64,000 bases of DNA from Nannochloropsis salina CCMP1776. Its lineage: Eukaryota; Sar; Eustigmatophyceae; Eustigmatales; Monodopsidaceae. Position numbers and translations under genes: made by a program. The notes beneath the pieces were generated by a model, which was given only the letters and a program-made list of their open reading frames with translations, was not told where the DNA came from and ran no database searches. Location: the NCBI GenBank assembly GCA_004565275.1, contig SDOX01000021.1, forward strand, positions 1,164,230-1,228,229. Reading direction: 5' to 3'. Shown here in pieces: positions 5,333 through 43,500 of this stretch. Position 1 is the first letter of the stretch; every line of letters starts with the position of its first letter.

Positions 5333-7294
5333 ATGGCTGGTACGAACTTACATACGGAGGACGGACACGAATGGCATGACGCTCGGGAAGAAGAATTTGC
5401 AACCGTTCCATCTTGGGCTTTGTCCTCCCCTAACCCTTTGAACGAGCTCCGTCAGAGGAAGAACCACGACGCCTCCGACAAAAGTGTACCTTTGACCCCC
5501 GCGACGCCTGAGACGTCGTCTACGTGGTCTTCATGGCTTTCGTCCTCCTCCCCGACGCAGTCTTCAGCCGTGAAAAGGGACTGGTTAATCGAGGCTCGCC
5601 GCCGCTTAGGGGGATTCGAAACGTTCTTCCGCACGACTGTACCGTATGGATTGGGGTGCATCTATTATATTGTGGACTTTGAAGGCCCTCCGGACACAGA
5701 CCTCCTGGCTGAAGCCATGCGTTTCCAAGTCAAACAGCACCCTAACCTCCGCTCTCGTCTGCATGGAGACTATTTGGAAGCCGTTGCCTTCGAAGACTGC
5801 CCTCAAATAGTCGTCCCATACATCGAATCAGAGGACGTAGTGGGGTACACAGAGCGGGCCATGAAGGCAGCGAAGGAGCTGAAGGCTGGTCGCGACCCGT
5901 ACTTGTGGCAGCTGGCTTTGCACCACACGCCCTCGTCCGAGTCCCACCATCTCCTCTTCCTTATCCATCACGCCATCTCCGACGGCGACTCCATCCTCCG
6001 CTGCCTCCAGTCTTTGATGGAGGGCATGGCCTCCCTCTCTCCATTATCTCCTCACGAGCGCGAACGGAAGCTTGCACAGGTAAAGGCCTTGCCACAGCTA
6101 GCCAGCGCCGATGAGCAGCTATACCCCCTATATAATGGGTACTACCTGGTCTACCATTTCCGGACGTTGTTTCGTGAAGTGTGGCGTGTAGTGCTTCGGC
6201 CTCGCCTTCCTCGTCCTTGCCAAATGACCTTGACAGAGGCACCGCGAGTGACCCGTTGCCTGTCCTTTGTCCTGGACGCCCCCGACTTCAAACGCTTGCT
6301 GAAAACGTGCAAAGCCAACCAGACTTCTGTGACGGGAGCATTGGTAGCAGCGACCTCGCAGGCGATGGAAGGCTTTATTGAGGGGCCACCCTCTTCTTTC
6401 AAAATGAAGGTGGAAGTGCTGGTCAATTTTCGCGGCAAGGCAAGTGCCACGTTGGGTTCCAAGGATTCCCACCAGCTCTACGCGGCCCCCATGGACATGC
6501 TACTGCCGGCGGGGAACAAGGCTGAGACCAGACTTGAATTTTGGCGGACCGCCCGGGAGGCCAAGCGCGAGATCGACGCCTTCGCTACGGAACCCCATCG
6601 GATCGTGGACACTTTGGAGTTCTTCTACATCATGGGCCACCATCCCATTGCCATGCCGCTGATCCGCCTCTTCGGTGCCTCTCCACGGCAAGGCCGGCAA
6701 AAGGCCCTCTCAATCTCCAACCTGGGGTCCACGGACAAGCTTTTCCAGCCGGCGGGGCCCTGGCGCTTGGGCCGGATGCAGATGGGCATCGACGAGCTTC
6801 TCTTCGGTCACAGCGTCTTCTTGGCCATGGCTTCGCACGAGGGACGGTTAAATTTCAGCCTGTCCTACATCGAACCCATCGTCTCCAAGGCCATGGCCGA
6901 GAATTACTCGCAAGCAGTTATCCGCGCCCTGATCGACGCCTGCCCTCCGGCAAGCGAAGACGCGCCTCCTACTCCTCAGACGCCGGTGTCCATCACGGCC
7001 AAGCCCTCTATCTCCGTTCCTTCCGCCCAGCCGTCCACTCCGTCAACGCTCCGAAGGGGCCTGAGAGAAGGAGAGAGGCTGGTCAGTGGTGCCGGGAGGA
7101 CGGGGATGGGTGGGATCGTGTCCCCGATAGGGGGCGGTACCGCATCAGCTACAGGAGGAGGAGGTGGGGGTGGGTTGGTCTCTGGCGGGGGCGCGGGAGA
7201 GGTAGGGGTTGCGAGTCCTGCGGCAGGAGGGGGTGCATCCTCCTCCTTGTCGTCGGGCAGCTCCAACGTGCATCGCATGGCCGCAGGATCGTAA
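5333..7294 (+). CDS. HHxxxDG acyltransferase (condensation/alcohol-acyltransferase-like)
   Basis: A single exon encodes 653 residues. The catalytic motif HHAISDG (residues 212-218) and the surrounding fold-like pattern place it in the CoA-dependent acyltransferase superfamily, which includes wax-ester synthase/DGAT, alcohol acetyltransferases, PapA-type enzymes and NRPS condensation domains. In these families the second His acts as base to move an acyl group to an alcohol or amine. The first 80 residues are Ser/Thr/Pro-rich without clear homology. The enzyme core runs from about residue 85 to 550, with GGFETFF and LSISNLG near its ends. The last 100 residues are Ser/Pro-rich and then Gly-rich, with low complexity. 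There is no obvious signal peptide. Wax-ester or triacylglycerol synthesis is possible in an oil-forming alga, but the core looks closer to the alcohol-acyltransferase branch, so the substrate is left open. Confidence 0.8.
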   Translation: MAGTNLHTEDGHEWHDAREEEFATVPSWALSSPNPLNELRQRKNHDASDKSVPLTPATPETSSTWSSWLSSSSPTQSSAVKRDWLIEARRRLGGFETFFRTTVPYGLGCIYYIVDFEGPPDTDLLAEAMRFQVKQHPNLRSRLHGDYLEAVAFEDCPQIVVPYIESEDVVGYTERAMKAAKELKAGRDPYLWQLALHHTPSSESHHLLFLIHHAISDGDSILRCLQSLMEGMASLSPLSPHERERKLAQVKALPQLASADEQLYPLYNGYYLVYHFRTLFREVWRVVLRPRLPRPCQMTLTEAPRVTRCLSFVLDAPDFKRLLKTCKANQTSVTGALVAATSQAMEGFIEGPPSSFKMKVEVLVNFRGKASATLGSKDSHQLYAAPMDMLLPAGNKAETRLEFWRTAREAKREIDAFATEPHRIVDTLEFFYIMGHHPIAMPLIRLFGASPRQGRQKALSISNLGSTDKLFQPAGPWRLGRMQMGIDELLFGHSVFLAMASHEGRLNFSLSYIEPIVSKAMAENYSQAVIRALIDACPPASEDAPPTPQTPVSITAKPSISVPSAQPSTPSTLRRGLREGERLVSGAGRTGMGGIVSPIGGGTASATGGGGGGGLVSGGGAGEVGVASPAAGGGASSSLSSGSSNVHRMAAGS

Positions 7295-7853: not shown

Positions 7854-9455
7854 TCAGTCAGGCAACTTGACCCATCGCTCCTCTTTCACCCCTGCTGCCC
7901 ACCCTCTCCTGGGCCAAGCAACCGCACACTTGCCTGAAACGCTGCCCCTTTTTGGTCGTACGGGCAATATTACTCGTGCTGGTGGGATCATCAGATTGGA
8001 ATCACCGAAGCTTAGAAATCGGTATGATCCTTTGGAAAGTGCGTGCCGGTAAATTCGATGCACAGGACCCAATCCACCCAGAAAAGCCCCAACCAACAAC
8101 AGCAAAGTCGATCGAGGCTGATGGAAATTCGTGATCAAACCATCGCAGAGCGCAAAACGATAGCCCGGGGCGATCATCAATTGCGTCTCTCCTCCTACGT
8201 GGTCCACCCCCTCCATCTTCGCTCGATCCCGCAAAGCCTCCAGGGCATGCACAGCAGGGACCAACGAGGAAGCTTGCGTTGGCCATTTTGCTCCGTAATG
8301 ATAAGCATCCCATTGTCCCAAACTCAGGTTCGTGACGCTGTCTTCAGACAACAGGGTGGAAGGTCGCTGGGCGGAGCAAGAGGAGGGAAGGGCAGAGAGA
8401 AGCCGCACACCCCACCAATACAACGTTTCCAGCGTGCGCACGGACGTAGTACCTACCGGGACCATAGGTCGCCCACTCCCAGTTGCTTCGATGAGAGTCT
8501 CTAAGGCGTCCATAGGGACTTGGATTCGCTCCCAGTGCATCGCATGCTCGCCCACTTCCTCCCCGGCGACAGGCTGGAACGTGCCCGCCCCCACGTGCAA
8601 GGTCAGGTAGCAGGTTTCGATTTGCTGAGGCCCGTTCCGCAGCTGTTGAAGAAGGGAGTGGGTGAAATGCAACCCAGCGGTTGGGGCCGCCACGCTGCCC
8701 CTGGCAGTCGCGTACACAGTCTGGTAGTCTTGGAGGTCCGCCGTGTCCGAGGCACGGTTCATGTAGGGCGGCAAGGGAATCTTCCCCACGTCCTCCAGGA
8801 CGTCTCCAAAGGTTCGGGGCGACTCTTTACCGTGCGCAGTGTGTGTCCAAGAAAAGCGGACGAGGCCATCTTTCCCCTCGCGGGCCTCCACCTGCCCCGT
8901 CAAGCACAGTCCATTCTCTGTGGTTAGGACAAGCCGGCTTCCTGCCTTTATGTTCCTTCCGCCGATCATACAACGCCAGACACTTCGGTTCGACAAGGCT
9001 GTCAAAGCGAGTGCAGGATCCCAAGAGGGTGACACGGGAGAGATGCATAAGACCTCGGCCTTCCCTCCCGTTCCCTCTTTACGCATGAGAAGACGGGCAG
9101 TAATCACTCGCGACTGGTTCAGGACAAGAAGGGATTTGGCCGGCAAAAAGGACGGAAGCTCTCGAAATATCCCATCAAAGACCCATGTGTCTACAGTGTC
9201 TGCTGTAGAAGATGGAGACGAAGCATCTGACACCAAAAGCAACGAGGCATCCCGGGGCTCCGCAGGCCGCTTGGCAATGCAAGTCTCTGGCAATGGGTAA
9301 TCTAGGTCATTTGCAGGGGGGAGTTCAAAAGGACATACACTTATTTCATCGTAGATAGGGGGAAAAGCTGGTTGTGGTGGTCGCAGTGCCACCATACCCC
9401 CCACCTGTGTCATGAATAGAGATGGTTTAAGCTTCAGCTCCCAGGATGATAGCAT
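7854..9455 (-). CDS. queA: S-adenosylmethionine:tRNA ribosyltransferase-isomerase (QueA-like)
   Basis: A single exon encodes 533 residues. QueA transfers the ribosyl part of SAM to 7-aminomethyl-7-deazaguanine in tRNA, forming epoxyqueuosine, in the queuosine pathway. Family signatures are collinear: YPLPETCIAKRPAEPRDASL (52-71), VLNQSRVITARL (111-122), GKIPLPPYMNR (224-234), GSVAAPTAGLHFT (253-265), LHVGAGTF (286-293), VPVGTTSVRTLE (332-343) and ITNFHQPRSTLLLLV (441-455). Bacterial enzymes are usually about 340-410 residues. This one has an extra N-terminus of about 50 residues and an insert after YWWGV (about 350-380). The WRCMIGG and LGQWDAY segments recall the longer Bacteroidota form. 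Eukaryotes normally salvage queuine and lack de novo enzymes, so a transfer origin is likely. The N-terminus is not a textbook organelle signal. It is divergent from the next gene, with 284 bp between starts. Confidence 0.92.
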   Translation of the reverse strand: MLSSWELKLKPSLFMTQVGGMVALRPPQPAFPPIYDEISVCPFELPPANDLDYPLPETCIAKRPAEPRDASLLLVSDASSPSSTADTVDTWVFDGIFRELPSFLPAKSLLVLNQSRVITARLLMRKEGTGGKAEVLCISPVSPSWDPALALTALSNRSVWRCMIGGRNIKAGSRLVLTTENGLCLTGQVEAREGKDGLVRFSWTHTAHGKESPRTFGDVLEDVGKIPLPPYMNRASDTADLQDYQTVYATARGSVAAPTAGLHFTHSLLQQLRNGPQQIETCYLTLHVGAGTFQPVAGEEVGEHAMHWERIQVPMDALETLIEATGSGRPMVPVGTTSVRTLETLYWWGVRLLSALPSSCSAQRPSTLLSEDSVTNLSLGQWDAYHYGAKWPTQASSLVPAVHALEALRDRAKMEGVDHVGGETQLMIAPGYRFALCDGLITNFHQPRSTLLLLVGAFLGGLGPVHRIYRHALSKGSYRFLSFGDSNLMIPPARVILPVRPKRGSVSGKCAVAWPRRGWAAGVKEERWVKLPD

Positions 9456-16131: not shown

Positions 16132-19100
16132 ATGGCGTTCGACTTGATAAACAGGGGATGTGTCTCAAGCTCCTACGAGTACATGATGAAGATAGTCTAC
16201 GTCGGAATATCCTCATTTTCCATCTCCTGTTCCCTGCTCATCCTTGTGCGCATGTGGTGGCGGCATCACCGTAAAAAATTTGCCACCGCCATAGGTCGTT
16301 TGGTTGAGCGGTTGGTGGTAATCGGAGCCTTCCTCGATGTTACTTTTCACGCTGTTGACGTCCTCTTCGCCCTGGACTGCAGTGCCCCTCCGTTACTATT
16401 CTTACTATCAGCATATAAAGAAAATATTCACGCGGCGGTAGGTAGGGGGCTACGGGGAAGACGCAGTCCTGCTTTCCTTTTACACGAATCTTGTGCCTGC
16501 TTGTCATCTTACTGTATAACATGTCCCTTCCCCGTGCCATTGCAAATTAGGCGACCATTACCTTCAACATCATCAAAGAAGGATTTGGATTGTTGTCTTT
16601 GAGCTGGCATGCTCATTTAGCGTACTGCCTCTACAGTTGGATCGTCTTGAAACGCTCTGCCGGGCGATTACAACGTCACCGACTACCTTTTATGATGTTG
16701 ATCATGGCTATCATCACAGGAATTCGACTCACCCTGTACAAGGAGCTACGAAAGGGTCTATTGGGTCTTTACTTATCTGCGATCATTTATGATGTGATTC
16801 TGCTACCTGGGATAATCGCCGCCATGCTGCGATGGTACTTCTTAACTATCTCTGTCTTGCGTGCTGGTGACCGGGAGCAGCGGCAGCAGCGAGAGCAGCA
16901 GGAGCGAGAGCAGCGAGGAGAAGCGAACCTTGCCGATACAGGCGAGCATGTGGTGGTTGATATGGCCGGAGTTGCTGCCAGAGAAAACGTCCTTGACCGC
17001 ACGAGTGTGTCGTCGTCTGTCTCGTCAGCTCAAGGATCCACCCGTCCACGGCTGTCGCACCGATCCGAAGGCAATGAAGATTCGCGCGCACAGAGAATAC
17101 AACGTAGAAAATCTTCTTTCCACTTTTCATCCTGGTGGCCTTCAATCAATGGACCTTCCGGATGTAAGGAGAGTCAGAGCCGAAGCCATGTCGTCAGTGG
17201 AGACAGCGGGAACGTAAGTCAGACCTTTCGACCCCCACGAGCAGATTCGCTTTCGCCACCTTCGAACTTTGCGGATGGACAAACGATCTCGCGTGTACCC
17301 ATGGAGGTGGAGCCTGTCCCGACTGCAACTTTACATGAGATGGGGGCCACGCGACGGGAGCGAGTACGGAACAGCAGCACCATCCGCCGACTGCTTCGCA
17401 TCTCTTTGACCGTTGCCTGCCTCTGGACTTGTATCGCCGTGGTGGATATTCTCATCTGGGTACGTTTCTACCTAGGTGAGAATACGATTCGGATGAAGAC
17501 TCCTTTCTTGATCCGCATGGTGCTCATGCGGGCTGTAGGGGCCGTCGACGCCGTCATCCTCGGGGACCTCTTCATTCTCTGCCTCCCCTGTGCCCGCATT
17601 CTGTCGCGCGTGGTCAACAGACTGCGCCGGTCCGATCTTTCTTATGTGCCAGGAGGTAGAGCCAGTGTTGGCAACGTCGCGGGTCCTAGTTCTGTCATGT
17701 CCGTCTCCAAAATGCGCGCCAGCATGGTCGGGGACGGGGGCAGAGGTCTTCTCAAAAATGCTAACATGCTCCAGAAAGAGGAAGAGGCATCCCGAACAGA
17801 GCGGAAACTGGACGCGATAAATTCGGTTCGGGCTCCTAATCGGCAAATGAAAAACGTGGACTTCTTCGCCACCACCTGGAATATGGGCGGGGTGGACCTG
17901 GAAGCCCTCGAGGCAGGGCATTTCCGCGAGGCATTGCTTCCTCAGTGGTTGCCCCCCGACTTTTCTCTCTACGTACTGGGTGTGCAGGAGTGTCAATGCC
18001 TCCGACAATTTCGAGCGGACGTCCACTCGCATTTGGGTGGACCGGAAGCCTTTGTCATGTTCGGGGACGAACTAGGGGATGATCAATTTTTGCATGGTTT
18101 CATCGCGATTACCCTCTTTGTCCGAGCAGATGATGTCGCCACGGGCGCCTTCCATCTTCACAAAGGCGCCGTGAACAAGGTTGCTGCTGGGGTATCTCTG
18201 GGCGCTCTGGGTCATGCGCCTAATAAAGGGATGGTTGGACTTTCCTGCCGGTATTACGATGTCTCGCTCGCCTTCGTCACTGCTCACTTTGCAAGTGACT
18301 CGAAGGGCCGAAACCGCGTCTCAAAAAGGAACCAGCACGCGCGGACTACCCTGCAGGCTTTATCGCTTCACAATGACTCGGATGATTTCGAGGTTCACCA
18401 CCAGCATCACCATCAAATCTGTTTGGGGGACTTCAACTACCGTCTCTCTCCGGCCACACCGACGGAAGTATTGCAGCTCGTGGCCCGCTCTGCACAAATA
18501 TCGCAAGAAATCATCGCGAATGAGGCGTCCGAATCAAATGCAAACCCCACTTCAGAAAATTGGCGAAAACTCAGCTATAAACACTTCTTTGAGCGGCCCA
18601 CGGGTTTAACTTTCAGCCTTGGCAGCATTCCCGAGTTGCCTCCATGTTTGGGCACACGATGTTCGTCCAGCTCCTCGCAAAATGTTAGCCAACCCTCATA
18701 CGGTACCAGCGGACTTGGTTGGCCCAATTCGACCTCCAGCAAAAGCTACCTGGGCGGGAAATTGCCGCACCTCTTTCTCGCTAGAAGTGGCAGCAATGCA
18801 GCCAAAGATGAGTCGAATCGGCCGCCTGAGGCGCATGGGTTAGGTGCTGGTTTCAGCAACGTTTTGAGGCGCCGTCCATCCATGGAATTGTACTTGTCCT
18901 CTCCACTCTCGCGCTTTGGGCGGCAGGGGTCCAGTAACCCAGTGTATGGCATTGGAAGTCTTACTGATGGCGAAGGGCCACAACAACAAATTTCCGTTGC
19001 AGGCAGCGGCTCACCTTCACTCCGGAAAAACGTGAAACCTTCGATCGTAAACAGCTCAAGTACCCGAAGCATTGAGGATTTGGGTGTCGATGTGGCATGG

Positions 19101-20276
19101 AACTGGGTGGGTAGCTTTGACGAGCTAAGCCGGAGTATGCGAGGACGGGTGGTTTTCTACAATTTTACCGAGGCGCCTATAACCTTTCCACCGTCGTACC
19201 GGTGGAACCGTTCGATTCACGGCTTTGACCTGGCTGGCGATTACACAGACGTCGAGCAGCTAATGCACGCGTACAGCACATTCGTGGCGGACCATCCCAA
19301 GCTCATCAGCCGGCTTACCAAATCTTTCGTATCCCACAACGAAAGAGGAAACGGCACAGTGTCGCCACTTAGCACCTTACCCCGTTCCCTCTCCTCCTCG
19401 AAGAAGAGGAAGGGTGTTTCCCTACGGACACCTTCTTACACCGATCGGATCCTCACTCACTCTATGCCTGGTAAGGGCGCTAATCTTCGGTGGCGCCATT
19501 ATGATATGATGGATGCCGTGCCGTTGTCAGACCATCGACCTGTCTGTGCGCATTTTACGCTCTTCGTGGACGCGAATTGTCGAGGTTTCCAAACGTTCTC
19601 GACACCACCGCACTCGGTTGTTCCACCGGATGACAAATTTTCTCGGGTCGATGAGCCTCTGGCCATGCAAACTGCAAACAAAGAAGAGCTAGCGCTCTTT
19701 ACAATCGTGCTGTCGCATCCCCACGTCACGTTGAAAGGTGGGTCGAACATTCTTTCAAATCTGAGTGCTGCCACGATACCGCATGAGGCAACGATCCTAT
19801 TTCCACTCGTTTCCGAAGACCCTTTGGCTGCAGAGCGTCTAGCGTCATCCCTGGGAGAGGTAATACCTGGTGGAACATCGCACGAGCAATCATCATTTAG
19901 CTCTTTAAGCCACCATGAATGGTCGTCATTTCCAGTCCGGCTCAAGACCCTCGCCTCCCCGAGGTTCAGCGAGCATTTGCTTCTCAAAGTGTCAAATGAT
20001 CGCGGCAAAGAAATCGGTCAGACCATCATTCCCTTGGCTCTAGGCATCTCTTCGAAGGAAGTTCCGCAAGAAACACATCTTTACCCTTCTTCGTATGCCA
20101 ATTCTTCTCTATGTAGTTTCCGAGTTGATGAAATTGTGCAGGGACTTCATGGAAAAGAGGATAACCGACGATTTTCACTACCTCTTACCAAGGGCGGATC
20201 TTTGAGAGGCTGGATCACTTTGACGCTCAGAACTAAGATCAAACCAATACGGCAACAGCACCGCTCACAGCCATAA
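16132..20276 (+). CDS. 7TM receptor fused to inositol polyphosphate 5-phosphatase (GPCR-INPP5 type)
   Basis: Two exons, 16132-16437 and 16551-20276, meet in phase 0 (donor gcggcg|gtaggt, acceptor aaattag|gcg) and encode about 1,343 residues. Seven hydrophobic segments precede the enzyme: IVYVGISSFSISCSLLILV, RLVVIGAFLDVTFHAVDVLF, FGLLSLSWHAHLAYCLYS, LPFMMLIMAIITGIRL, YLSAIIYDVILLPGIIAAML, then after a loop of about 190 Ser/Gln/Arg-rich residues LLRISLTVACLWTCIAVVDI and VGAVDAVILGDLFILCLP. The 5-phosphatase domain (about 535-1110) has all signature blocks: FFATTWNMGG, GVQECQ, CLGDFNYRL (Asp/Asn catalytic), TPSYTDRIL and LSDHRPVCAHF. It contains a long Ser-rich insert at about 790-940. The predicted reaction is removal of the 5-phosphate from phosphoinositides or inositol phosphates. 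The remaining 230 residues may hold a C2-like fold. The layout matches oomycete GPCR-bigrams. The start at 16132 follows the first in-frame ATG after a stop; an extra 5' exon is possible. Confidence 0.88.
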
Positions 20277-20619: not shown

Positions 20620-23600
20620 CTATTCACTCTCTCGTTGTAGCGCTTGCATGTAGCACATGGCGAAGGACGGTGTCCCGTCCGGACGTCGTAACCAATATCC
20701 TGCCAGCGTCTCTGTCCAGGGTCCTGCCATCTCCCCTTCTGTCTCTTCTGTCGACACCTTTCCATCATATCCAGCCCAGAGCAAAGCAATAGGCACGTTG
20801 GCCATCACAGCCCCCTTAGTCATACCAGGAATCACTATCTTGGCGCGTTCAGGCATACCACTGAGGCCTGCATCCGGCTCGCCAATCTCGGCCAGATAGA
20901 CCCTTATCTCATCAGCGGCAGGGTCTGGAAATCGTAATCCATCCAGGGAGTAGTTTGTGGAAGAGAACCGTACTGCTCTATTCAGGCTCGCCACGCCAGA
21001 CGCCATCGATGACGCAGGGTCGACGCTACGGCTTGTCTCGTATGCTGACCAGCCCACGAGATCCGTGGTGATGATAGGCAGGATCCGGTCGACCGCCCAA
21101 CCTGTTGTTTCCCCGTGTGTCTTGGCCAGGATTCCTCGGTCTACTTGCACGGCATGGTAGATCGCAACAGAAGACGCAGGTTCACCCACGTCATCCCTGC
21201 CAGCCTCCACGCCCGCTTGGCGCGCCTTCAGCCAGGTGGCGGCGCGCGACGCCAAAGCGGGGGGGATTTCCTTTTGGTCATCGTCGCTCAGAAAGTGGTC
21301 GAGAGACCAGGCCTGAAGTATGAAAGTTTTCCCAGAGCCTTTATAGGTCTCAGCCAAATACGAAGTGAGCTCACGGAATTCCTCCGTTTCCTTCGCGGCA
21401 TCCGCAGCGGAATAGGTGTCGAATCGAAGTTTCAAGTTCAGACCAACGGTCGACACTGCCTTCGCGTTGATGACATATGTTTTGATTGCCGGGTTGGCGA
21501 AGAGAGACTCATAATAGGGCAACTTGGCTAGTTCTGTGAGGGAGCTTGGCGATCCAAAGGGCCAAGCAGGTGCATTGAATGGGTAGAGGAGAGAAGGGGG
21601 CATCTCTCCGCCCATGTAAATTCCTATACTTTCAGCCCCAGCCTCCCTCGCCAGAGCGGCACCTTCAGCGAGATAATCTTTGCTTGGGTCCAGTGAGTAG
21701 GATCCGCCCCAAAAAGTGATTCCCAGGGGCTTCATTTTCCCAAGAGCCACGCGCAGGTCAGCGAGGAGGCTCTGAGGGACCTGGGCCAAGTGATGAGCAC
21801 AGTCGCCCATGAAGGCCGGATACCCCGAAAAGCGGAGCGCGTGCAATTGCTCGGACATGGAGTTTGAGTTGTGGTTCATGTAGAAAAGCGAAGACGGGAA
21901 GGCGGCGGCGTCCACCTCCCGGAAAACCGACGCCACAGTACCCACCACTCCCCCAGAGAATGTTGGTTTGGCAGCCTCCACCTCCACGTCAATGTAGTAC
22001 ACGTCCAGACTTTTCGCGGGGAAGCTGCCTGCGGCCTCGTTCATCACGGGCCTCCTTGCTGAAGAGAGGTCCTCCCCGTTGTCCAATGCACTCCACGCCC
22101 CATCCCAAACCGTGGCAATCGTAAGATTATTATGGGGAAAGTAAGGCAAGATGCCCACGGCCCATCGATTGAGATTGAGCGAGACAACATATTCGACCCC
22201 TGCTTCCAGCTCGACAGGCGTTGCCAAACTTGCCAGACACCACCCTTCTTTTCCCGCCTTTTCCACAGGAAATACAATGGTGGCGAACGCCACGCCTTGC
22301 GAGGTCCACAGCGTGGCCGTATGTTCACCCGTCTCTCCAGACGCGCGGTAGAAGCGCACGCCGGTCAAGAGAGATGAACGCGCCACCGCAAATGGTGTTC
22401 CCACCTCTACAGGGGAGTCAAGCTGAACAGGGGTCAAGAACCCTCGGGTGCTCATACTGTCGAAGAAGCGTTGTGTCGAGATTCCAGTACAATCCTCTTC
22501 CCCATCTCGGACCCCCATCCGGTGCCAGACCTGTCCTTGTCGGTCCATTACCACCAGCTGCTGCAGACCCTCATCCATCACGTACGCCAGGCCGCGGAAT
22601 GAGTCGACACTGATCACGGAAGGGGTCTCCAGGAAGCCCTCCTCCCCGCCCAGGGTTGACAGGTGCACACCATCTCGCGTGAAAAGTTCTACTGTGCTTG
22701 TACCTTGATCCAGCACCCACAATGTTGCCTGCGCTTCCGAACCAGTTTCCGTAAAAGAAATCGCTATATCGACAGGCATATCCAAGCACTTCTCCTCGAT
22801 GTTAAGGCCCTCTTCCCCCTTCCCTTTACCCTCTGTCGCCTCTCCGAGCACAGACCAACAACCTGCCAGGCGCACCGTCTCATTTGTCGCCGTGTTGAAG
22901 CCCACAACACCGTCATCCTCAGTGAGGACGTACACCTCGGTCTCGTTCCCCTTCCCTGCGAAAGGAAAGACGGCCAGACCTCGAGATCCTTCCACAGGGC
23001 CCCAAGCGCCCAGTACTTCCCCTGTCCTCCTGAACCCTTTGATCATCATTTCATCCACCACGTACACCTCTCCATTCGAGCCCACCGCCACCGCTTCCGG
23101 TGCTACCAATGTGGCCAAGGGCCATCCGAGCGACGGGAGACCTTTCTGCTGTCCCTCTGTCAATACAATACGAGACAAAGTCGCATTTCCGTCTACATTT
23201 TCCCACGCCACATACATCATCTCGCCCACCGCGTCCACAGCCATGTCCCTAAATTCAACGCTCACATTGCCCAAATCCAGCTGCAGAGCCGTGCGGACGG
23301 CCGCGCTACATATACCTGTCGCTGGACTCATCTCGGGTAGGGACGTAGTACGATAATGGGGAGCTTCTTCTCGATCGGGGAATTTGTCGGGGCAACCTCC
23401 ATGGGAAAGGCCAGCAAAATTGACTCGAAAAGCCGTGCGGAAATCGGCCTGAGCATCTGCCAACACCGCAAACGACAAAACATTCCTCCCGTGCCGCCAC
23501 AGGGTTTCAGGTTCCAAATCCTCTCCCTCGTCCTCCCAATCGTCCTCAATGGTGAATAAGGTGCTTGTGTCCCGTCCGGCCTGCTCCTCCATGGCTGCCC

Positions 23601-24747
23601 CGGCGGAAGAAAAAGGGTCGGGATTTACCCATACAGGCCTTTTATTCAAGTACACGGCTAACACTGTCAGCATACTTTCATGCCGCCCAACGACGCTCAC
23701 ATCCTCTAATATCGCATCGGGCGCGAGGGTGAAAGTTGTTTCGTAAAACAAGACATTCGCCAAGCTCGGTTTGCTCAAGCTGAGCCAAGCTTTTGGCTCC
23801 ACCACGGGATCCCAAGGGCCTTGTGCCGCCCCTTTGAGTGCACGAAACCAAACCTTCCAGGCGGATGCGTTGTCGGTGGGTAGCAAACTCGGGATTCCAC
23901 ACCCGGTCTCTTCCTCTTCTTCCTCTAGAGGCGTGGTAAAGCTGCCATCGTCCACCATGTACAAGGTTGGGGTAGCAAAAGATTGCGGCACCGCTTCCAA
24001 TGCTGGTTTTATTTCCTCCACGACCTTTTCCGTGAGCGCCCGCAATGGCTCACCCAAGGAGTCTCTCCCACACGCCGTCCCTACCGCTTCGTAGGTGGCG
24101 ACAGGGAACCAGACATTCAGTAGAGCCGGCTTACCAGGACCGCTCGGGAGCACTACCAAAGAAAGTCTGTTCGTTCGCTCCTTCAATTTTGGCAGGGTGA
24201 TACTGGCCGCGAGGGTGCCGGGGGCGAGGCCCATGACGGGGTCTTCGCATGTCCAAATGTTCACGTCGTTCAACAGGAGCGCAACGACAGCCGCGTCCGC
24301 TGCGAAGGCCACCTCAATCCGAGCTGATTTTACATCCGCCTCAGCTGGGAGCGTAAAGCTTTGGTGAAATCGGTAAATGGATGCGGTTGCAGAGAAGCCA
24401 GCGATCCACTGGCTGGTCGATAGACTGAGACTACCGCCACCGCCGGGCTTTTTTTCAGGCTCAGAAATCAAATCCTTGGATGGGGCGTCCTCTTTGGCGA
24501 CCACCATAGGTGCTACATCCAGGGCTTTAGGCGGCTTACCAGGCTCCAACGCTTTCCAGTGCAAATCAGCCATTTGCTCCCCGGCAGCTTTTCCTGCTGC
24601 ATCCGCGCCGGTTGGAAAAAGAACGCTGTGCAAAGAGCAGAGAGTCCGGGATGCCGTAATCGTCTCGGCGAATGCGTACTGGACGGTCGTTGTGAATATT
24701 AAGAGCTTCAGAAGAAATGCGACACTCCCGCGATCAATACACGCCAT
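20620..24747 (-). CDS. large secreted multidomain protein (beta-propeller, DUF4082, glycosidase-like C-terminus)
   Basis: A single exon encodes 1,375 residues. A signal peptide is evident (LLKLLIFTTTVQYAFA, cleavage near residue 27). Two related beta-rich modules follow at about 100-230 and 315-460, each with an aromatic-plus-Asn pattern like galactose-binding folds (inference). Residues 485-750 contain repeating strand motifs such as PEAVAVGSNGEVYVVDEM and SVDSFRGLAYVMDEGLQQ, typical of NHL-like propellers. A DUF4082-type module (about 785-885) is marked by LLTGVRFYRASGETGEHTAT and SLATPVELEAGVEYVVS. The C-terminal part (about 950-1260) has alternating helix/strand segments with GITFWGGSYSLDP, GAESIGIYMGGEMP and DLVGWSAYETSR, resembling a TIM-barrel glycosidase. 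Catalytic residues cannot be assigned. DUF4082 is mostly bacterial, so transfer or deep divergence is possible. A cell-wall or extracellular polysaccharide role is an inference. Confidence 0.72.
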   Translation of the reverse strand: MACIDRGSVAFLLKLLIFTTTVQYAFAETITASRTLCSLHSVLFPTGADAAGKAAGEQMADLHWKALEPGKPPKALDVAPMVVAKEDAPSKDLISEPEKKPGGGGSLSLSTSQWIAGFSATASIYRFHQSFTLPAEADVKSARIEVAFAADAAVVALLLNDVNIWTCEDPVMGLAPGTLAASITLPKLKERTNRLSLVVLPSGPGKPALLNVWFPVATYEAVGTACGRDSLGEPLRALTEKVVEEIKPALEAVPQSFATPTLYMVDDGSFTTPLEEEEEETGCGIPSLLPTDNASAWKVWFRALKGAAQGPWDPVVEPKAWLSLSKPSLANVLFYETTFTLAPDAILEDVSVVGRHESMLTVLAVYLNKRPVWVNPDPFSSAGAAMEEQAGRDTSTLFTIEDDWEDEGEDLEPETLWRHGRNVLSFAVLADAQADFRTAFRVNFAGLSHGGCPDKFPDREEAPHYRTTSLPEMSPATGICSAAVRTALQLDLGNVSVEFRDMAVDAVGEMMYVAWENVDGNATLSRIVLTEGQQKGLPSLGWPLATLVAPEAVAVGSNGEVYVVDEMMIKGFRRTGEVLGAWGPVEGSRGLAVFPFAGKGNETEVYVLTEDDGVVGFNTATNETVRLAGCWSVLGEATEGKGKGEEGLNIEEKCLDMPVDIAISFTETGSEAQATLWVLDQGTSTVELFTRDGVHLSTLGGEEGFLETPSVISVDSFRGLAYVMDEGLQQLVVMDRQGQVWHRMGVRDGEEDCTGISTQRFFDSMSTRGFLTPVQLDSPVEVGTPFAVARSSLLTGVRFYRASGETGEHTATLWTSQGVAFATIVFPVEKAGKEGWCLASLATPVELEAGVEYVVSLNLNRWAVGILPYFPHNNLTIATVWDGAWSALDNGEDLSSARRPVMNEAAGSFPAKSLDVYYIDVEVEAAKPTFSGGVVGTVASVFREVDAAAFPSSLFYMNHNSNSMSEQLHALRFSGYPAFMGDCAHHLAQVPQSLLADLRVALGKMKPLGITFWGGSYSLDPSKDYLAEGAALAREAGAESIGIYMGGEMPPSLLYPFNAPAWPFGSPSSLTELAKLPYYESLFANPAIKTYVINAKAVSTVGLNLKLRFDTYSAADAAKETEEFRELTSYLAETYKGSGKTFILQAWSLDHFLSDDDQKEIPPALASRAATWLKARQAGVEAGRDDVGEPASSVAIYHAVQVDRGILAKTHGETTGWAVDRILPIITTDLVGWSAYETSRSVDPASSMASGVASLNRAVRFSSTNYSLDGLRFPDPAADEIRVYLAEIGEPDAGLSGMPERAKIVIPGMTKGAVMANVPIALLWAGYDGKVSTEETEGEMAGPWTETLAGYWLRRPDGTPSFAMCYMQALQRESE

Positions 24748-26808: not shown

Positions 26809-29800
26809 TCAGACGTCTATCGTCTCCACTGCCCCATCCGGGGATGTTTCTCGGTTAGGTTCGCGAAAGGAAGCTGCCACACGCTGATGCTCGACCAGTA
26901 AAAAATACGCAAAAAGGCGAGTTTGGAAGATATCCGTCCAGAATGCGTGCGTAGGTTCAGGTTGCGAAGCCAGAAAGCTGTCCGCGTGGAAAGCCACCAT
27001 TTGCTCCTCCAAGTAGCTCAAGGTGTACTCTCGGTACCGGTCAAGGAGCAACTGACGGAAGAATGTCACGAAGGCTGCATGCAGCTGGACATTTCCTGTC
27101 ACTTTCTTCATTGCATTATCTTTTGACTTTGTCTGCTCAGAACTGGGCGCTGCACCTCCATTTCGGAGCATGCTCTCATGATTAGTCTTCTTCGCGTCGG
27201 TCGATCGCGCAACGTGCACTGCATGGTAACCATAGCCTAAGGCATCTCCATTACCCGATCCTGTCGAGAATCCCATGCTGGGATTCACAATCTGCTGAAT
27301 TGAGGTCAACAAGGTGCAAACGGCTGCTCCGGGCAATACAGGAAGCGTGGCGGTCGCCGGATCCCCCCGCCGCGGTCCCTCCACACAGTCATTGTCCAAG
27401 TCTACGATGAAAGCACTGGCAAGGAGTTCTCGCGTTGAGGCTCGTACACAGGGAGGAAGCTCGCCGTACTTGGTCGTGCTCGTATTTCGGGCGGCGTGTC
27501 CTGCCGTCGCGATACCAGAAGGACTGAGCCCGTGACCACCTTGACCGCGTGTGGACAAAGGCATCGAGCGGGTCGAAAGCGGGGACGGATTGCCGGGGCT
27601 GAAGGGCGAATCCACGTCAAAGGAAGGTACACCATCCATGCCGGAAAACACACCCATTTCATGCACGTCACAAGTGGCACAAGCCCAGGCATGGCAGCCG
27701 CTGCTGCTGTTCGCACTGTCCCCATCTCCATCACTGTATGCGGGCGAGACGATCTTCGTGGCAGTAAGCGCAGCGTCGACAATGCATGTTTCTATGCCGA
27801 CCAAAAAGCCGGGCACTTGACGCATCGCCGAGGATGTCGTCATCGGTTCCGCATAGCTTCTTCTTCCAGCTATCCTCATCAGGGACTCGTCTAGCCCGTC
27901 CTCTTCGAAGACGTAGTCATACCAGCTCCTCCCTCCTGCACCCCGTTTAACATCGTCCCAGAAGCTGCAAATCCCCCCCACAGGTAGCAGAGGTTTGTAC
28001 GGCAACAGCCACGCGAAAGGGTAGATGAGACGACGAAGCCCTTCGCAGGCTACCATGGTGAGGGTGCGCGAGGAGGATTTGACTACCACCGGTCGCTCCA
28101 ACAGGACTGCCGTAAAGGCTTTGAGCAAAATCTCCGGGCTGAGAGCCTGAATGAGAGGGAAAAAGGATGCATCCACGTGCAGGGGCAGGGACGTGAGCAA
28201 AGGTGGAGGTAGAGGACAGGAAGAGGAGCTGCTGCTGGTAGCAGCAGGATCGGGGACCGATAGTCCGGAATTCGTCGTCGGCGCTCTCTTGGGCGAGAAC
28301 AAAGCCGTCGACGCCGAAGCAGCCATCCCTGTCTTCTTCCAGGCCCTCAACCAGTAGGCGGCAGACTCCTCGGTGTCGGTTTTATCCCCAGCGTCCGTCT
28401 TTTGAATGTCAGTCGGTCGTTCGGTCTTCCTCTCGCCGCGGGCCGGCGCGAACAAGCTAGTGTCCAGCATGGTTTGGACGCGTTCAGACTGCTGCCTCAG
28501 CTGCTCATCTTCCAGCTGCCAGGGTGTCTTCTTGGGCGTATCCGGCATGATGGGAGACCCACCAACCCCCGGCTGTCCCATTGACTCCCGCATCCGGACG
28601 ACCGCACGGCGCAAAGAGGCGACGCGGGGCTCGGTGCTGACCAGAACGACGCACCGCGGCAAAAGCACGTCCGCGCCGGCGGGTGCCCATTCCATCAGAC
28701 AGGCTCCATACAGGTCAATAGACTGATCAGCCTTCAGATCCGGAGGCGCCAATTCCCCCTCCCCTGAAGGAGACCTTACGGCGACACGTGGGCTCGCCAC
28801 GAAAGGAGAAGGGCTTCGGTTTCCAAGGGAGGATGCCAAGTCACGTCCGTCCGCAGATCCTATGTCCCTCCGTAGCTCAGGGTCCACGTCTTTGCGGGAG
28901 ATGGGTAGCACAAAGTGGTGGAGAGTGGCTTCGGGGACGACGAGTTTTGGGGAAAAGAGGACGAAAGTGGAGCGTTCGAGAGGCATGAGGCACAGGGAGG
29001 GAAAGGCGAGGCGCTGGATCTCACGGACCAACCGTGTTTCGATCGACGCACACAGGGAAGTTGCGACGTCTTCCTCGTTTTCCGTGGCCGTATCTGCGCC
29101 TGCGACATCATTAGATTCGTACACACTCGGCTTCGGCAGCCCCAAAACCTGAGACGAACGCACCGCACTGCTGAAATGCAGCGGCCGCTTGAACTTCTTT
29201 CGGTGCCCTTGCTCCTGTTCCTGCCCGAGTGAGGTCCCTTTGGAGTTTGGTACCGGCTCATCGAGGTGGAAAAACCCGGAGTTTCCGTCTTCATTTTTGC
29301 TGCAGAGGATCGCCCCTCCCACAGCACCATTCGATTCCTCACCACCCGGGGAGCGGACCCCAGCATCCTCCTTCTCCCCGCCCTCCCCGTCCACCTCTGA
29401 CTCCCGCCTACCCACATCTGTGCGAAGGTCGGCCGCACGCAAGGCCCTTCCTGCCGTCAAGTCCACGGGAAAGACGGCGACATCAAACCCCCACACGAAT
29501 TCATGCGTCAAAGGCTCCGGTTTCCTAAATACGTCCTCCGTGCTCACCAAGACGAGGCCACGCCCTTCGGAGCGAGGGCAGGGAGGGACATACACGTGCC
29601 GAAAGGAGCGTACGGATTTGAAGAGCGTGCGTAGGCGCTTTTTCCGCCGCAAAGGGGCTGACCGTTGGCTCTGAATTTCTCCTGACAAAATGCCGACTAG
29701 ATTGGATTCGAGGAAGGAGGGATATACCTCAGCTTCCAACCAGGCAAGAATCACCCGTTGGGCCTCGATTAGGTAAGTATTTAGTTCCCCAATAATGCTT

Positions 29801-30823
29801 CGGTCAATTTGTCCTATTCCTCCGGTACCCACGCCCGAATAATACCGAGATTGGCTGGCCAACCGGCCCAGACACTCGGCAATGGAATACCGCAACTCGG
29901 GGCCAAGGGCGGTCGCACTCGGCGCGTCTCGTTGGCGACCACCCCCTTCGTAGCCCTGCCCGGAGAATGACCGACTGCTAAGTGACGGTCCACCTGAGAC
30001 CCCTACCTGCGGGGAGGGCTGGATGTAGGCTTCGTACACAGCCTTGGCGTCCATGATGAAAGTGCGGAGGTCGTTGGCGTTTCGGGCATCGCCTGCGGGG
30101 CCCACCAGTCGGTCCCGGGACAGACGTGCGCCTAGAGGTCGCAGGTCATGTTGGATTTTTTTCCATAGATACACATTTCCAACGGTACAAGGGCCTGTTG
30201 GGGAAGTGGAGTTCAAGAGGAAGGCTTCGATGTAGCGGCTCTGGACTTCGTCTAGGAGGACTTCTTTCAGGGGCGTACGGAAAGAATTTTTGAGATGCAC
30301 CAGAAGGGATCGATAGGTTGTCGATAAAAGGAACGCAGGATACCAAGTTTGGTGAAGACGACGGAAGACGAAAGCGTGGACTGCAGCGAATACGTTAATA
30401 TTGGGCGCGCCGGAAGTGATTTCGCCTTCAAGGAAAGTAAGCATGACATCTGGGACATCGATGCGCTTGGGTGCTCCTTCCCCCAGATAAGACTCGTAAA
30501 TTCGCGTTGCCTGCGTTACAAGCGAGGGGCCTCCACCGGCGGCAAGCTCGAATACCTCGACTTCTAGCCAGAACAAGAGAAGATGGGATTGCCCATGCTT
30601 GCTGAGGAAGTCCAAGAAATAAGGCATCCATCCTGGGTCTATGAATAAAGACGTATGAAATTACATTATGGGCTTTTCGCTGGTTCTTTGCTACTTTTTA
30701 TCCATACGCTGTCGTGAATTTGCACACTATTGATGATGTGAAGAAGATGGTGAGCAAAAGGGTAAACGTACCATCTATCAGGTGCTCAAAAGAGATCGAC
30801 GTGCGAATGTATTTGTCCCCCAT
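26809..30823 (-). CDS. tandem RGS plus DENN domain protein
   Basis: Two minus-strand exons, 30823-30772 and 30632-26809, join in phase 1 (donor gatg|gtacgt, acceptor acccag|ga) and give about 1,291 residues. The junction restores SFEHLIDGWMPYFLDFL, the start of an RGS-like fold. The first RGS-like domain (about 10-130) ends with WYPAFLLSTTYRSL; a second (about 140-350) ends with EAQRVILAWLEAEVYPSFL, the typical RGS last helix. A long Ser/Gly/Glu-rich linker follows. The DENN module shows a u-DENN-like part (YGACLMEWAPAG, near residue 665), c-DENN (LLERPVVVKSSSRTLTMVAC and YPFAWLLPYKPLLP, near 860-910) and a d-DENN-like C-terminus (LLLDRYREYTLSYLEEQ). RGS domains speed GTP hydrolysis by G-alpha; DENN domains activate Rab GTPases. 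The pairing suggests a link between G-protein signals and membrane traffic. The first exon is inferred. Confidence 0.85.
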
Positions 30824-37532: not shown

Positions 37533-40500
37533 ATGTCTGCCGAAGCCCATCTAGACATAAAGGGAGGCGCCGAAGAGCTCCTCGTCGTTGTGAGCAAATC
37601 AAAGTACATTGAGACCCTGGCCCTATCATCTAAAGACCATTGGGACACATTTTTGGCATGTGTCCGTCAAGTGACTACTGCGGAAACGGCCACCAGCAGT
37701 AAGGAGGCAAAGCAAGGAATTCGTGCTCTTCTCAAAGTTAGTCAGCTATGTCTGCAAAAACTGGCCAGCATGGCTATGACATTAAAAGAGTCATCTTCAA
37801 AAGGAAATGTAGAACGATTTTCCATCGTCCTCTACCGCGCAATATCAGTGATGGTGCACGCTCTGGAACCCCGAGTCGCAGGAAGCTGTGGTGAGACTCC
37901 ATCAATCCAATACATAGCGGCGGGTGGTAAGCTAGGTTTTGAGAAAATTTTGTACCATGCTATCGCACGAGGTACGGAATTGGGACAGCATCGTGATGTC
38001 CAGGCTTTCACGCGCATGCTCGCAAGAAGGGTAAAGCTGATAGCGGGGGAAAGCGCAGCGGACGGCTGCGGGACTGTCGCAGAGAGCTCCATTTTGGGGG
38101 TGAAAGAAGACGAATGGAACGGAAAAGGTACTGTCCGTAATCCACTCGCCACGAAGAGGAATGAAAAATTGCAATCCTCCAATAGCCAGGGTAAAAAAAG
38201 CATACACACCAGTGGCACAGACCCGGCCGCCCCTGTCTCCTGCCAATCCACACCTCGTTCTGCCGCCCCTGACCGCAATGAGGACAAATTGTCGAATTAT
38301 AGAGTTGATTATGGCTTTGGTCGTCCCACGCACACCTGCGACTCCACATTGATCAGCACGGTGTGTGGAGCATCCATAAATGGCTTGCGGTCAACGGTGG
38401 AGAACTTCGCAGCCAAGGCGGCTCCGGGCACGCCGTTGGACAAGGATGAATATCAACCTGGCCGAGAATGCACGGGGGACAGAGCGATGGGAGCCCATGA
38501 CTTCGCCATACAAGTAGAGGAAATCATCTGGGAGTGCTTGCCATGGATCAAGGCACTCAGAAGTCGGGGCAGCGTCAGCAAAGAAAGAGGTGGCGAGGGT
38601 GCGGGGGAGGAGGCGACTTTAGCATCTAGAGACATGGACATGGCCGACGAATATTCGGAACGCCTCTACCACGCAGTGCAGAAAGCAGGGGTCACGCTGG
38701 ATAGGATCGGTCCGCGCGGGGGGGGGGGGTTGGAAGGGAGAGGAGGCAATTACCAGGACGCTTTCCGCCTTCGGTCCCGGCTCGTGTCCTTGGCAGCAGA
38801 AACCGGCGTCCCGTCAGTACAGGCGTTCATTCCTCAACTATGGCGGGTTGGAGTCTTTTATGAGAAAGCTGCGGTGGCCACAGCGGCGCCCAAAGGAGCA
38901 AGGCAGGGTAAAAAAGGATCAGAGAATGAAGCTGCCGTGTCTAGTTCGAGAGCGCTATTGCTGGACGTCCTGGGGCTGTACGAACACGCAGCCCAACGCT
39001 TGCTTTTCGGCCAACAAACAGGAAGCAAGGAACGGGCAGCGAACAGGGTGGCTGCAATGCGGGCGGACGGGCTCAGAAGGGAAGGCGAGGACAGCTGCGC
39101 GCTTTCCTCTTTTCCTTCTTCCTCCCCTCCCCCTCCTCCCTCTTCTTGGGCCCTTCATGTGGAAGTCTTGGACTGGCTCCGCCACTACACCACCTTGTGT
39201 CTGAAAGTGGAAGAGCCTGAGCGGGCCGTGAATCTCCTGCAGGAAGCTAGCCAACGGTGCCGCAGCAGTGGTGAGAAAGGTCAGGGAAGCGTGAAGAGGT
39301 ACGGGCCAGGGCCAATGGAAGACACAGGCCTGCTCCTTAGTTTATCCCGCGGGATTTTGCGAGTGATCGCAGCTACTGTATGTTTGCAGCAGCAGCAGCA
39401 GCAGCAGCAGTTAGAATTGTCCCCGTTGAAAGCGAATTGCTCGAAGAGCAAGCGAGATAAAAGTATCGGACAGGGTAAGCGCACCAGGCGCAGGAATGAC
39501 GGCGGAATGAAAGTAGCCCTTGATCTGATGGCCGCGGCATTGACAGACATTGCTAGCGCCAAGTCCCCCTTATCCATTAGCCCCAACGGCGACAACAACA
39601 AAGGCAAAGGAGAAAGGAAGGGTGCAGAAAAGGGAATTAGAGCGGAGGCACACGAAAGCCTCCCTGTAAGATGCAAAGCTCACCTGGTCCGCACTTGGCG
39701 GGCTTTGGCTCGCTTGCCCGCTGTGCTTCCCTCAATTGTCATGGCTGATTCGTACCTTTCTGAGCCAGTGACTGGTCAAGTGCTTATACGAGCTTACATG
39801 GCTTTGGCTGACACCGCGCGTATTCTCCTGTTTTGGGATCAGAAATCCTGCGACAAATCCATCCGAACCAATTTAAGTACCAAGAGCAATCCAGATCCCA
39901 ACCTCAAAGCCACTTTCCTCGAAGGCCTCCTTCGGGCAGCATTATTGCTTATAAACCTCTTCGTGGACAACACCAGCAGCGATTGCGTCATTCCTTCATT
40001 GCCCTCACTTCGACCTCTCCCGTCCTGGTTAGGGTTAACGCGTGACTGCGACGACCCTGCGTTGGTGGCCATGGCGTGTCTACGGCATGCCGAGGATGCC
40101 ATCAACAGAAATGAAACAGGCAAAAGCAGCAACAGCAATCAAATACAACGAAGATTGGGCTCCGCATTCTTCTCCTTGGGGCGTGCTCTCGTCAACTCGT
40201 CGTCCCCTACTGCTCGTTCGGATACACCAAAGGAAAAGCGGCGCTCGCGTCTGCTGTTGGGGCTAGGGCCGCTGGCACGAGGATGCCGGCTTCTCGAAAA
40301 AGAATGCTCTATGAGCACTTCTCCATCTATATCCCCCGCGTCCCCCGAGCCACAGCGTCAAAATCCATTTCAGCAGCTTCAAATCGACATGCGATATGCA
40401 ACGCTAGCAGCCGCCTTCAAAGACGTTGGTGCTGGGCGTATGGCTATGCGGGTAGCTGTCCACACCTTGTCTTTGATGTATCAGCATTGTTCCATCTCCG

Positions 40501-43500
40501 CTGATTCTCAACGGGACTCCCCCTCGGGCCCGACGTCTTGTGTGTCTCTGTCCAGAACTTTGCTCCGAAAATTGGTCCATTGCTACAAAGCGCCCAATGT
40601 TCTTGACGAACAAAGCCTTCAGACAGCTCTACAGAAGGAAGCTCGCACGCCTGAATGGTGCATGGCAGAGCTCCACCAGTGGAGAGATTCTGAGGAGGAG
40701 ACAAAGGAAATGCACGCGGTTTTATGCCTATCCCTCCCTTCACTCGTGGTGCCACCAGTTTTGCGGGAAGCTGTGGCCAAAGCAGAAATGTCAACGTATG
40801 TTGCGATGGTGCACGCCGTGCTCAATGAAGAGGCGCAGGTCAGTTCAGACGCAGAACAAGAAGAACATCGCGGAAGTCAAGCAGCCGAGCAAATGTGCGG
40901 TGTCGTTCTGGCTCACCGGTGTTGTCGTGAGAGTGGGCTGGTAAGTCCACTGTATGCCAGTGTGGAAGGAGCAAGGATGGCACGCATTCTGTGTCACGCT
41001 CCCAAGGAGAGATGCAGATTGTTTTTATCGAAACTTGAACCAGAAATACGTGAAGAACTCGCTGGAGAAGGAGGAATGGAGTTTTGGGTGGAGAGATTGG
41101 ATAAATCTCCCTTGCAGCCGATGGAGAGGTGTTTGGCTCCCAAAAACGTCTACGAGGAGGCCTTGGTGCACGGAATTCGTGGCCTGATTTGTGCGGAGAA
41201 TGATAAGAGAGAGGAAGCTGGTGTAGCAGTAGATCTGGCGTTGCAAGCATGGCGACAGCTCTGTTCGATCGGAGAGGGGGAAACGCAACAGGAGCGATGG
41301 GAAGAAACAGAGGTGCTGCGAACAATAGATTTTCCTGTCACTCGGCAATGTTTCGGAGCTGTGCTTGACCAGCTGAGCGTGGATGGGCCGTCCCTACGCC
41401 AAGCCCAAGTCCTGGAGACGGCAATGTATCTCGATCAGAGAGGATACTTTGGGCAGGGAGGCGGAAGCCGTAGAGGCAACATGAAGACCGCTGAAGAGGA
41501 ATTGCTCGTTTCAATCGTGACTACACTATTCTCCCGTTTGGAGCTGGCCGCATTCTCGGAGGCTCATGCCCAGACCATTCCCTGGACAGGACTTTTCAGG
41601 CGTTTCGTGCCAGATGTGGACATCGTTCCATTGCACATGACCGAATTCGACCGCCCCCCACCTTCTCATTTGCTTTCCTCTGGTCAAGAGCTGAGTCCTG
41701 AAGCAGTTCTCGAAGATGATCTGGGCGAGAGTTTTCTGCAGAGTCTCTCATTACTTCGAGAGACTGACCATCTAATATCGAATGGAAATTTGCCTATGGC
41801 TTTGTCCAGGCTTCGAAAATTAGCAGCGACTTGTCAGGGGCTTTCAGCTCCTTGTAGTGAGGATCAAGCCGCCGGGATGGAAAATCAAAGCGGAGGGCAG
41901 GAAAGTTTGCCCTTTCTGAAAGAAACGAGTGAAAAAATTGTGAGCGCAAGAGTTGACGATGAAGCCGAAAGAAGCCAGGACCGGAGGACACGTTCTCTTA
42001 AGGAGGAGGTGTTTGAAGGAGAGAGTACCAACCTTCGTCCTCCTTCCCGGCACCTTCCCCCTGAAAGGTCCACGGACTTTCTCTCATCAATCCTTAAAGC
42101 AGGAGGATGGCGACGCAGCTGGTGTCTCGCCGAATGTCTGTTGCGGATGGGTCAGGTGTGGGAGCTTCTGGGTAATGGTGGGAAAGCCTCATCCTATTAC
42201 AAGAAAGCCTTGTCCGTTGCACGAAAATGGGTCGCCCTTGGGGTGGCAAAGCGAGCAAGTCGAGGCCGTGCGCGCGTGAAAGGCGAGATAAAAGGTGAAG
42301 AGGACAAAGATTTGGACGATATATCGGTCGTGACTGACGTTCAGGACGACACGCAACTGCGGGGGCCGAGACAGGACTGGCGTTTTGACAAGCTGATAGA
42401 AAAGGTAGAGGTATTGATCCAAAAGGGAGACAACCAGCGACTGTCTATGTCCTTTTGTGAAGCTTTGGATACGTACAAAGAAGCGAGGAAAATTTACAAA
42501 GCTGCATCTGCATTGGAGCTTCGAGACGTGGTCCTCGAACCCCTGCGACTTTCCATTACGCAAACCGAGCGGGCGAAAATCAAACATTGTGAACGCAATG
42601 AATTCAATGGCGAAAATCTGGTCGGAACGAGCAATTCCATAACAGCAGACGAGTGCGAAAGATCTTATGAAGCCACGTCAGCGTCCAAAAATACTCAGAT
42701 TGCCAGAGACAGCGCGCCAAGTCACCGGTGGCGCACACTGGAAACAGCTCTCCAATGGCGTCAGACCTGGACTGCCTGGCTGCACCATTCCGTCTCCAGG
42801 AACGGAGCGGAGCAGAAACTGCGACAAAACACACCCTTTATGGCGACATCAGAGGCCGTAGCTCTAAGGTCATGTGAGCGAGACCTGCAGACATTGATGG
42901 AGCGAAAGGACCTTCCCGTTCTTGAAAGGGTGGAGGCTTGCTTACGGCTGGCGAGAATCACCGCTCATCAGGGATCAGCGGCCGAGGGACTGGAACAAGC
43001 GTGGTGCCTTGCGATACGAAGCCGATGCCCTCGATTGATCCGAGATGCTGGCCGATTGTCGTTTTTGGCGGGAACAACGCGAGTTCCAGCTGTTGCGCCC
43101 GAACCGGCGGCACTGTCGAACTTAGAATTGGCAGGCGGTGAAGGGAGTCAAGGCTGCATGAAAGGAGAGGGACGAGGATCGACAGCAACCTGGCGGCTGA
43201 TCAGTTCAGTAGGGACCAGTTTTGGGAACAGTTTGCGCTTGAATGCATTGCGGACGCCGGAAGGGTTGGGGGAAGTGCTACCTGAGACGTGGACTGTGGT
43301 CACACTGGCCTTGATCCCGTACTTGGAGGAGGAAGGAGAAGAAGAGGCGGGCAGGGGCCATGTGCTAATCGGTAGGATCGAGGGAAGAAAGGAGCGAGGT
43401 GTCGCTGCAGAAAAGAGCAAGGCTCAAACCCCGCGAATGGTGGGCGCCCGGGTCGCCCAAGCTAAGGAAGTAAAGAGGTTGCTCGCTGAGTTCGAAGCAA

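Follow-up and report, generated by a model that had tools for sequence, protein, structure and literature searches.

We found that the gene on the forward strand at 16132-20276 of the window, the 64,000-nucleotide stretch of a Nannochloropsis salina CCMP1776 contig analyzed here, very probably encodes a GPCR-INPP bigram, a class already known in the same algal clade. We are confident of its architecture and class, as distinct from its mechanism: The predicted product would have its N-terminus outside the membrane, seven GPCR-like helices, and a cytosolic inositol-phosphate 5-phosphatase. About seven transmembrane (TM) segments lie N-terminally and an INPP domain C-terminally, both in one predicted polypeptide.

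The GPCR-INPP bigrams are known from oomycetes, as the first-pass annotation had stated, and outside the oomycetes they are limited to seven genes of Nannochloropsis gaditana, according to van den Hoogen et al. (2018; PMC5784254). Since those seven genes are already published, the proposal in that annotation that the present gene would add a photosynthetic stramenopile to the known range of the class is not supported. Of six N. gaditana primer cores published in PMC11204352 and PMC11678606, five match the genome analyzed here exactly, four in an FBPase locus and one in an Lst8 locus, and the sixth (Lst8 reverse) matches with 2 mismatches in 22; one N. oceanica primer (PMC6432748) has no match within 3 mismatches. 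We take the genome to belong to the gaditana/salina clade, most likely to N. gaditana or its sister species. This clade is the genus Microchloropsis in taxonomy. Our search of the open-access literature found no functional study of algal GPCR-INPP proteins.

Gene structure

The gene is predicted to comprise two exons separated by a short intron.

16132..16437, forward strand: exon 1 (aa 1-102), comprising the start codon, a short N-terminal stretch, and the first two TM segments
16438..16550, forward strand: intron, GT..AG, phase 0, 113 bp; absent at the matching site of the paralog L049
16551..20276, forward strand: exon 2, with TM3-TM7, linker, 5-phosphatase, C-terminal tail, and stop (aa 103-1343)

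The intron begins with GTAGGT and ends with TTAG. Joining 16132-16437 to 16551-20276 gives a predicted frame of 1343 aa without internal stops. The earliest ATG of this frame is the one at 16132, ahead of which the frame stays open only as far back as 15973. The best support for assigning the two exons to one gene comes from L049, a paralog on another contig, in which a single uninterrupted frame of 1554 aa contains both membrane segments and phosphatase. L049 aligns with the window 7TM part over aa 38-197, across the splice point (tblastn; 43% over 162 aa, E = 1e-29). Because it carries both parts without interruption and aligns across this point, the join is supported, and the single phase-0 splice into one frame described in the first-pass annotation is borne out by the 113-bp intron, the stop-free 1343-aa frame, and this alignment. 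A second single-frame paralog, L051 (1223 aa), has six segments scoring over 1.5 ahead of its phosphatase.

An alternative reading is that two genes have been wrongly joined, exon 1 encoding a short two-TM peptide and a separate TM-phosphatase starting from the ATG at 16692. Exon 2 does have its own ATG at that position, which would give a protein of 1194 aa, and the splice join is predicted from genomic sequence. However, this ATG falls inside TM4, and 96 of the 102 exon 1 residues align with L049, 35 of them identical to a part that sits in the same uninterrupted frame as the L049 phosphatase. We therefore consider two separate genes highly improbable, and a real receptor-phosphatase fusion at this locus very likely.

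The phosphatase domain and C-terminal tail

Three features make up the C-terminal part of the predicted protein.

17853..19568, forward strand: inositol-phosphate 5-phosphatase domain, about aa 537-1108, placed by Pfam PF22669, PDB 2xsw, and motifs
18444..19154, forward strand: Ser-rich expansion within the phosphatase domain, 237 aa between GDFNYR and FYNFTE, 19% Ser
19569..20273, forward strand: C-terminal tail, following the phosphatase domain and similar in part to those of L049, L050, L051, and L052

The window protein matches the Pfam family Exo_endo_phos2 (PF22669) at 4.4e-28. A PDB search with the single sequence gave 14 matches, all of them named inositol 5-phosphatase, synaptojanin, or phosphatidylinositol phosphate phosphatase (2xsw, 1e-13). 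With a profile of six family members, 18 PDB sequences were matched, comprising 15 5-phosphatases and three salivary nitrophorins; the scores were 5e-34 for INPP5E (2xsw), 2.7e-32 for SHIP2, 2.8e-25 for OCRL, and 8e-18 for synaptojanin. Inositol 5-phosphatases are marked by the motif set WN, QE, KG, H, GDxN, PSYTDR, and SDHxPV. This set is present in the window protein, where we found all eight of the motif blocks sought, from WNMGG (aa 545) through SDHRPV (aa 1095). The Pfam match, the 14 PDB matches, and the eight blocks agree with the complete 5-phosphatase domain originally described.

The sequence suggests that the substrate would be a lipid. From the top scores of INPP5E and SHIP2 in the profile search, we infer that the enzyme probably strips the 5-phosphate from membrane phosphoinositides, for example, PI(4,5)P2 or PI(3,4,5)P3. 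The catalytic domain and motifs are shared with these two enzymes; unlike them, the window protein has large inserts within the phosphatase domain, and to our knowledge neither INPP5E nor SHIP2 has a 7TM part.

The stretch between GDFNYR and FYNFTE, at 237 aa compared with about 35 in SHIP2 (counted on the alignment), implies that about 200 aa have been inserted. A Ser-rich insert inside the enzyme domain had been annotated at 150 residues; its presence and location are upheld, and its size is revised upward. L049, L050, and L051 also have long stretches at this position. Two further features are absent from the first-pass annotation: Another long stretch, of 74 aa, separates FPPSYR from RTPSYTDR, and a tail of 243 aa follows SDHRPV. 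Pfam finds nothing in this tail in either the window protein or L049. An AlphaFold2 model of window 17643-20273, built with five paralog rows, has a mean pLDDT of 39.5 and a pTM of 0.32; judging by strands in this low-confidence model and by the look of the sequence, the tail is possibly a C2-like beta domain.

Membrane segments and topology

We assigned seven membrane segments and the long loop between the fifth and sixth.

16186..16251, forward strand: TM1, aa 19-40, hand-set limits around a hydrophobic peak
16303..16371, forward strand: TM2, aa 58-80, hand-set limits around a hydrophobic peak
16554..16646, forward strand: TM3, aa 104-134, weakest peak (1.16), at the exon junction
16680..16742, forward strand: TM4, aa 146-166, hydrophobic peak
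16764..16835, forward strand: TM5, aa 174-197, hydrophobic peak
16836..17390, forward strand: third intracellular loop, long (185 aa, aa 198-382) and predicted to lie in the cytosol
17391..17459, forward strand: TM6, aa 383-405, hydrophobic peak
17514..17588, forward strand: TM7, aa 424-448, contains DAVILGDLF

Across the first 464 aa, the Kyte-Doolittle profile has seven peaks at a threshold of 1.1, a number equaled or exceeded by 131 of 1000 shuffled sequences, and six peaks at a threshold of 1.6, which no shuffle reaches (0 of 1000). Since seven low-threshold peaks are not unusual in shuffled sequences, the count of seven rests on the strong peaks, on homology, and on the paralog model described below; with L049 as both homolog and model, it agrees with the seven hydrophobic segments first noticed at this locus. 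The weak TM3 contains a stretch (WH..(A)Y....WIV) that is common to the window protein and L049 and is partly found in other paralogs. The TM5-TM6 loop is indeed very long, 185 aa by our hand-set limits against the roughly 190 claimed earlier.

The loop charges fit an N-terminus outside and a C-terminus inside. Counts of K+R in the loops predicted to be inside are five for ICL1, four for ICL2, and 27 for ICL3 (185 aa, which also has 22 D+E), and in the segments predicted to be outside they are one for the N-terminus, one for ECL1, two for ECL2, and three for ECL3.

Similarity of the membrane part to GPCRs

Searched against Pfam, the window 7TM part matched no families (the HMMER filters discard most matches above about 0.1), and a PDB sequence search with the same part matched no chain. 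The 7TM part of L051 likewise has no relative in Pfam or PDB by sequence. Among the other paralogs, the weak Pfam matches all fell under the cut-off and serve as leads only: Rnf-Nqr (0.012) for L049; 7tm_1 (0.014) and SLATT_5 (0.67) for L050; and DUF3087 (0.13), IRK (0.27), and Dicty_CAR for L059. As a test for class E membership, the Pfam model Dicty_CAR (PF05462) gave no match to the window protein or L049, and matched L059 alone, below threshold (E = 0.44). A genome-wide search with this model came back empty, as did its control, and so carries no weight.

A structural model of the L049 7TM part (from a six-row alignment, and thus of a paralog and not of the window protein itself) has a pLDDT of 66.6 and a pTM of 0.58. 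It contains seven TM-length helices if a broken TM5 is counted as one. Foldseek returned 1240 matches to this model at E ≤ 10, only two of them at E ≤ 0.001. The best 50 of the 1240 are all GPCRs (50 out of 50), a result obtained with a moderate-confidence model and without a non-GPCR 7TM control. The top match, 2ycz_A, has E = 6.2e-4 and a TM-score of 0.65 by target (0.51 by query). We take the GPCRs among these best 50 of 1240 to be mostly of class A, together with Frizzled-4 and members of class B. The model thus supports a GPCR-like fold for the 7TM part, with no class assignment.

Class A (rhodopsin) receptors typically have DRY at the end of TM3 and NPxxY in TM7; strings resembling either are absent from aa 1-464 of the window protein. 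The usual GPCR disulfide joins a cysteine before TM3 to one in the second outer loop. Cysteines occur at both of these places in L059, L052, and L051. The window protein and L049 are without this pair but have in common a cysteine in the N-terminus (C10 of the window protein) and another in the first outer loop (C83 of the window protein). The earlier reading of the gene as a receptor joined to a 5-phosphatase is supported by the spliced frame, the PDB matches, the single frame and alignment of L049, and the GPCRs matched by the L049 model.

Paralogs in the genome

By our searches, the phosphatase family has at least 12 loci in the genome (26.5 Mb, 103 contigs): one in the window and the others on C14, C55 (at 1.13 Mb), C1, C99, C13, C11, C36, C7, C72, C47, and C31. 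Frames at split loci were read separately and not joined. Membrane segments or 7TM homology are found upstream of the phosphatase in nine of the 12 (window, L049, L050, L051, L052, L055, L059, L056/57, and L058), the call for L056/57 and L058 resting on short matches (E = 7.5e-7 and 6.7e-5, respectively). L053, L060, and L054 are outside the nine; the sequence upstream of L054 consists of N.

With the oomycete and N. gaditana GPCR-INPPs, as described in PMC5784254, this family shares an N-terminal 7TM receptor-like part, a C-terminal inositol polyphosphate phosphatase, and multigene organization, and with N. gaditana also the algal clade. Likened by description, the numbers are seven published genes in N. 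gaditana and at least 12 family loci here, nine of them with TM segments or 7TM homology. The GPCR-PIPKs (RpkA type) follow the same logic, in that a phosphoinositide enzyme stands C-terminally to a 7TM part, but their enzyme is a kinase, catalyzing the reaction opposite to that of the window phosphatase. The same paper (PMC5784254) describes N. gaditana as lacking GPCR-PIPKs. PIPK domains are present in the genome analyzed here.

Two further 5-phosphatases, L061 and L062, are without a 7TM part. The OCRL-type L061 belongs to the same catalytic superfamily as the window gene but has ASH and RhoGAP domains instead, and shows one hydrophobic peak and no TM run. Within the family, L052 (C99:48001-55500) has FDMA in place of WNMG, QRS in place of QEC, and GNLN in place of GDFN, while SDHRPV and PSYTDRI are kept. 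Because catalytic residues are lost at these three sites, its phosphatase is probably inactive, and L052 is probably a receptor-pseudophosphatase.

Most of the aligned paralogs that cover the phosphatase motifs retain them. The 7TM parts, the window protein excepted, are only 17%-24% identical to that of L049. Strong divergence of the membrane part beside mostly conserved phosphatase motifs would be expected if the 7TM part were a constitutive anchor, holding the 5-phosphatase at one membrane and sensing no ligand. Yet the divergence also fits a diversification of ligands, and a GPCR-like seven-helix fold would be superfluous for a mere anchor; we think this explanation unlikely.

Possible modes of action

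Most likely, the 7TM receptor would govern a 5-phosphatase that the protein positions on the inner side of the membrane. An external ligand might move TM5-TM7 and so alter phosphatase activity or membrane access within the same molecule, a step that we put forward tentatively. Direct control, which the first-pass annotation suggested would need no G protein, and G-protein-dependent control are both listed as candidate models for such proteins in PMC6033456.

The same architecture could instead signal as a normal GPCR through a heterotrimeric G protein, with the phosphatase regulated by G-alpha or G-beta-gamma, or with the 7TM part serving for address and feedback only. Models of this kind are listed in PMC6033456, and we keep it as a reading because a G-alpha match and an RGS-domain gene are present. 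The G-alpha match in the genome covers model positions 2-333 (1.1e-113) and contains a single TGA, for which an intron or an error may account. The RGS-domain gene lies in the window itself, 6.5 kb from the bigram gene: a 1272-aa frame on the reverse strand (26809-30627) that has an RGS domain at its N-terminal end (7.7e-15) and also a DENN domain (1.9e-11), so that regulation of G proteins and of Rab may be combined in one protein. Nothing in the present sequence data, however, links the window receptor to G-alpha, and we regard the G-protein route as possible but rather doubtful.

The broadest version of direct control by the receptor would make the family, with its at least nine receptor-5-phosphatases, divergent receptors, and one degenerate member, the main environmental sensing family, in which a ligand switches phosphoinositide turnover intramolecularly and without a G protein. 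We judge this whole proposal improbable as it stands. N. gaditana is transformable (PMC11204352) and is therefore a practical host for testing direct coupling of sensing to phosphoinositide turnover in GPCR-bigrams, and the two intron-free paralogs, L049 and L051, are identified for cloning.

Other observations

The primers PHsp-Lst8-1F/1R (PMC11678606, Table 1) are the same as the cyFBPase qPCR primers given in PMC11204352, and we counted them as such. Their matches lie in the FBPase-like locus L063 instead of the Lst8 locus L065, in which the reverse primer finds none.

Tail to tail with the bigram gene, and about 340 bases from it, is a 1375-aa frame on the reverse strand (20620-24747) with a DUF4082 match (4.1e-21). 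Elsewhere in the window, a 653-aa frame at 5333-7294 (forward strand) has a Condensation (NRPS-type) match of 5.1e-06, under the curated cut-off. The 533-aa frame at 7854-9455 (reverse strand) matches Pfam Queuosine_synth (QueA-type) at 1.3e-91, and a frame of 2647 aa at 37533-45476 (forward strand) has a Peptidase C50 (separase type) match of 1.9e-63 together with a SAP domain.
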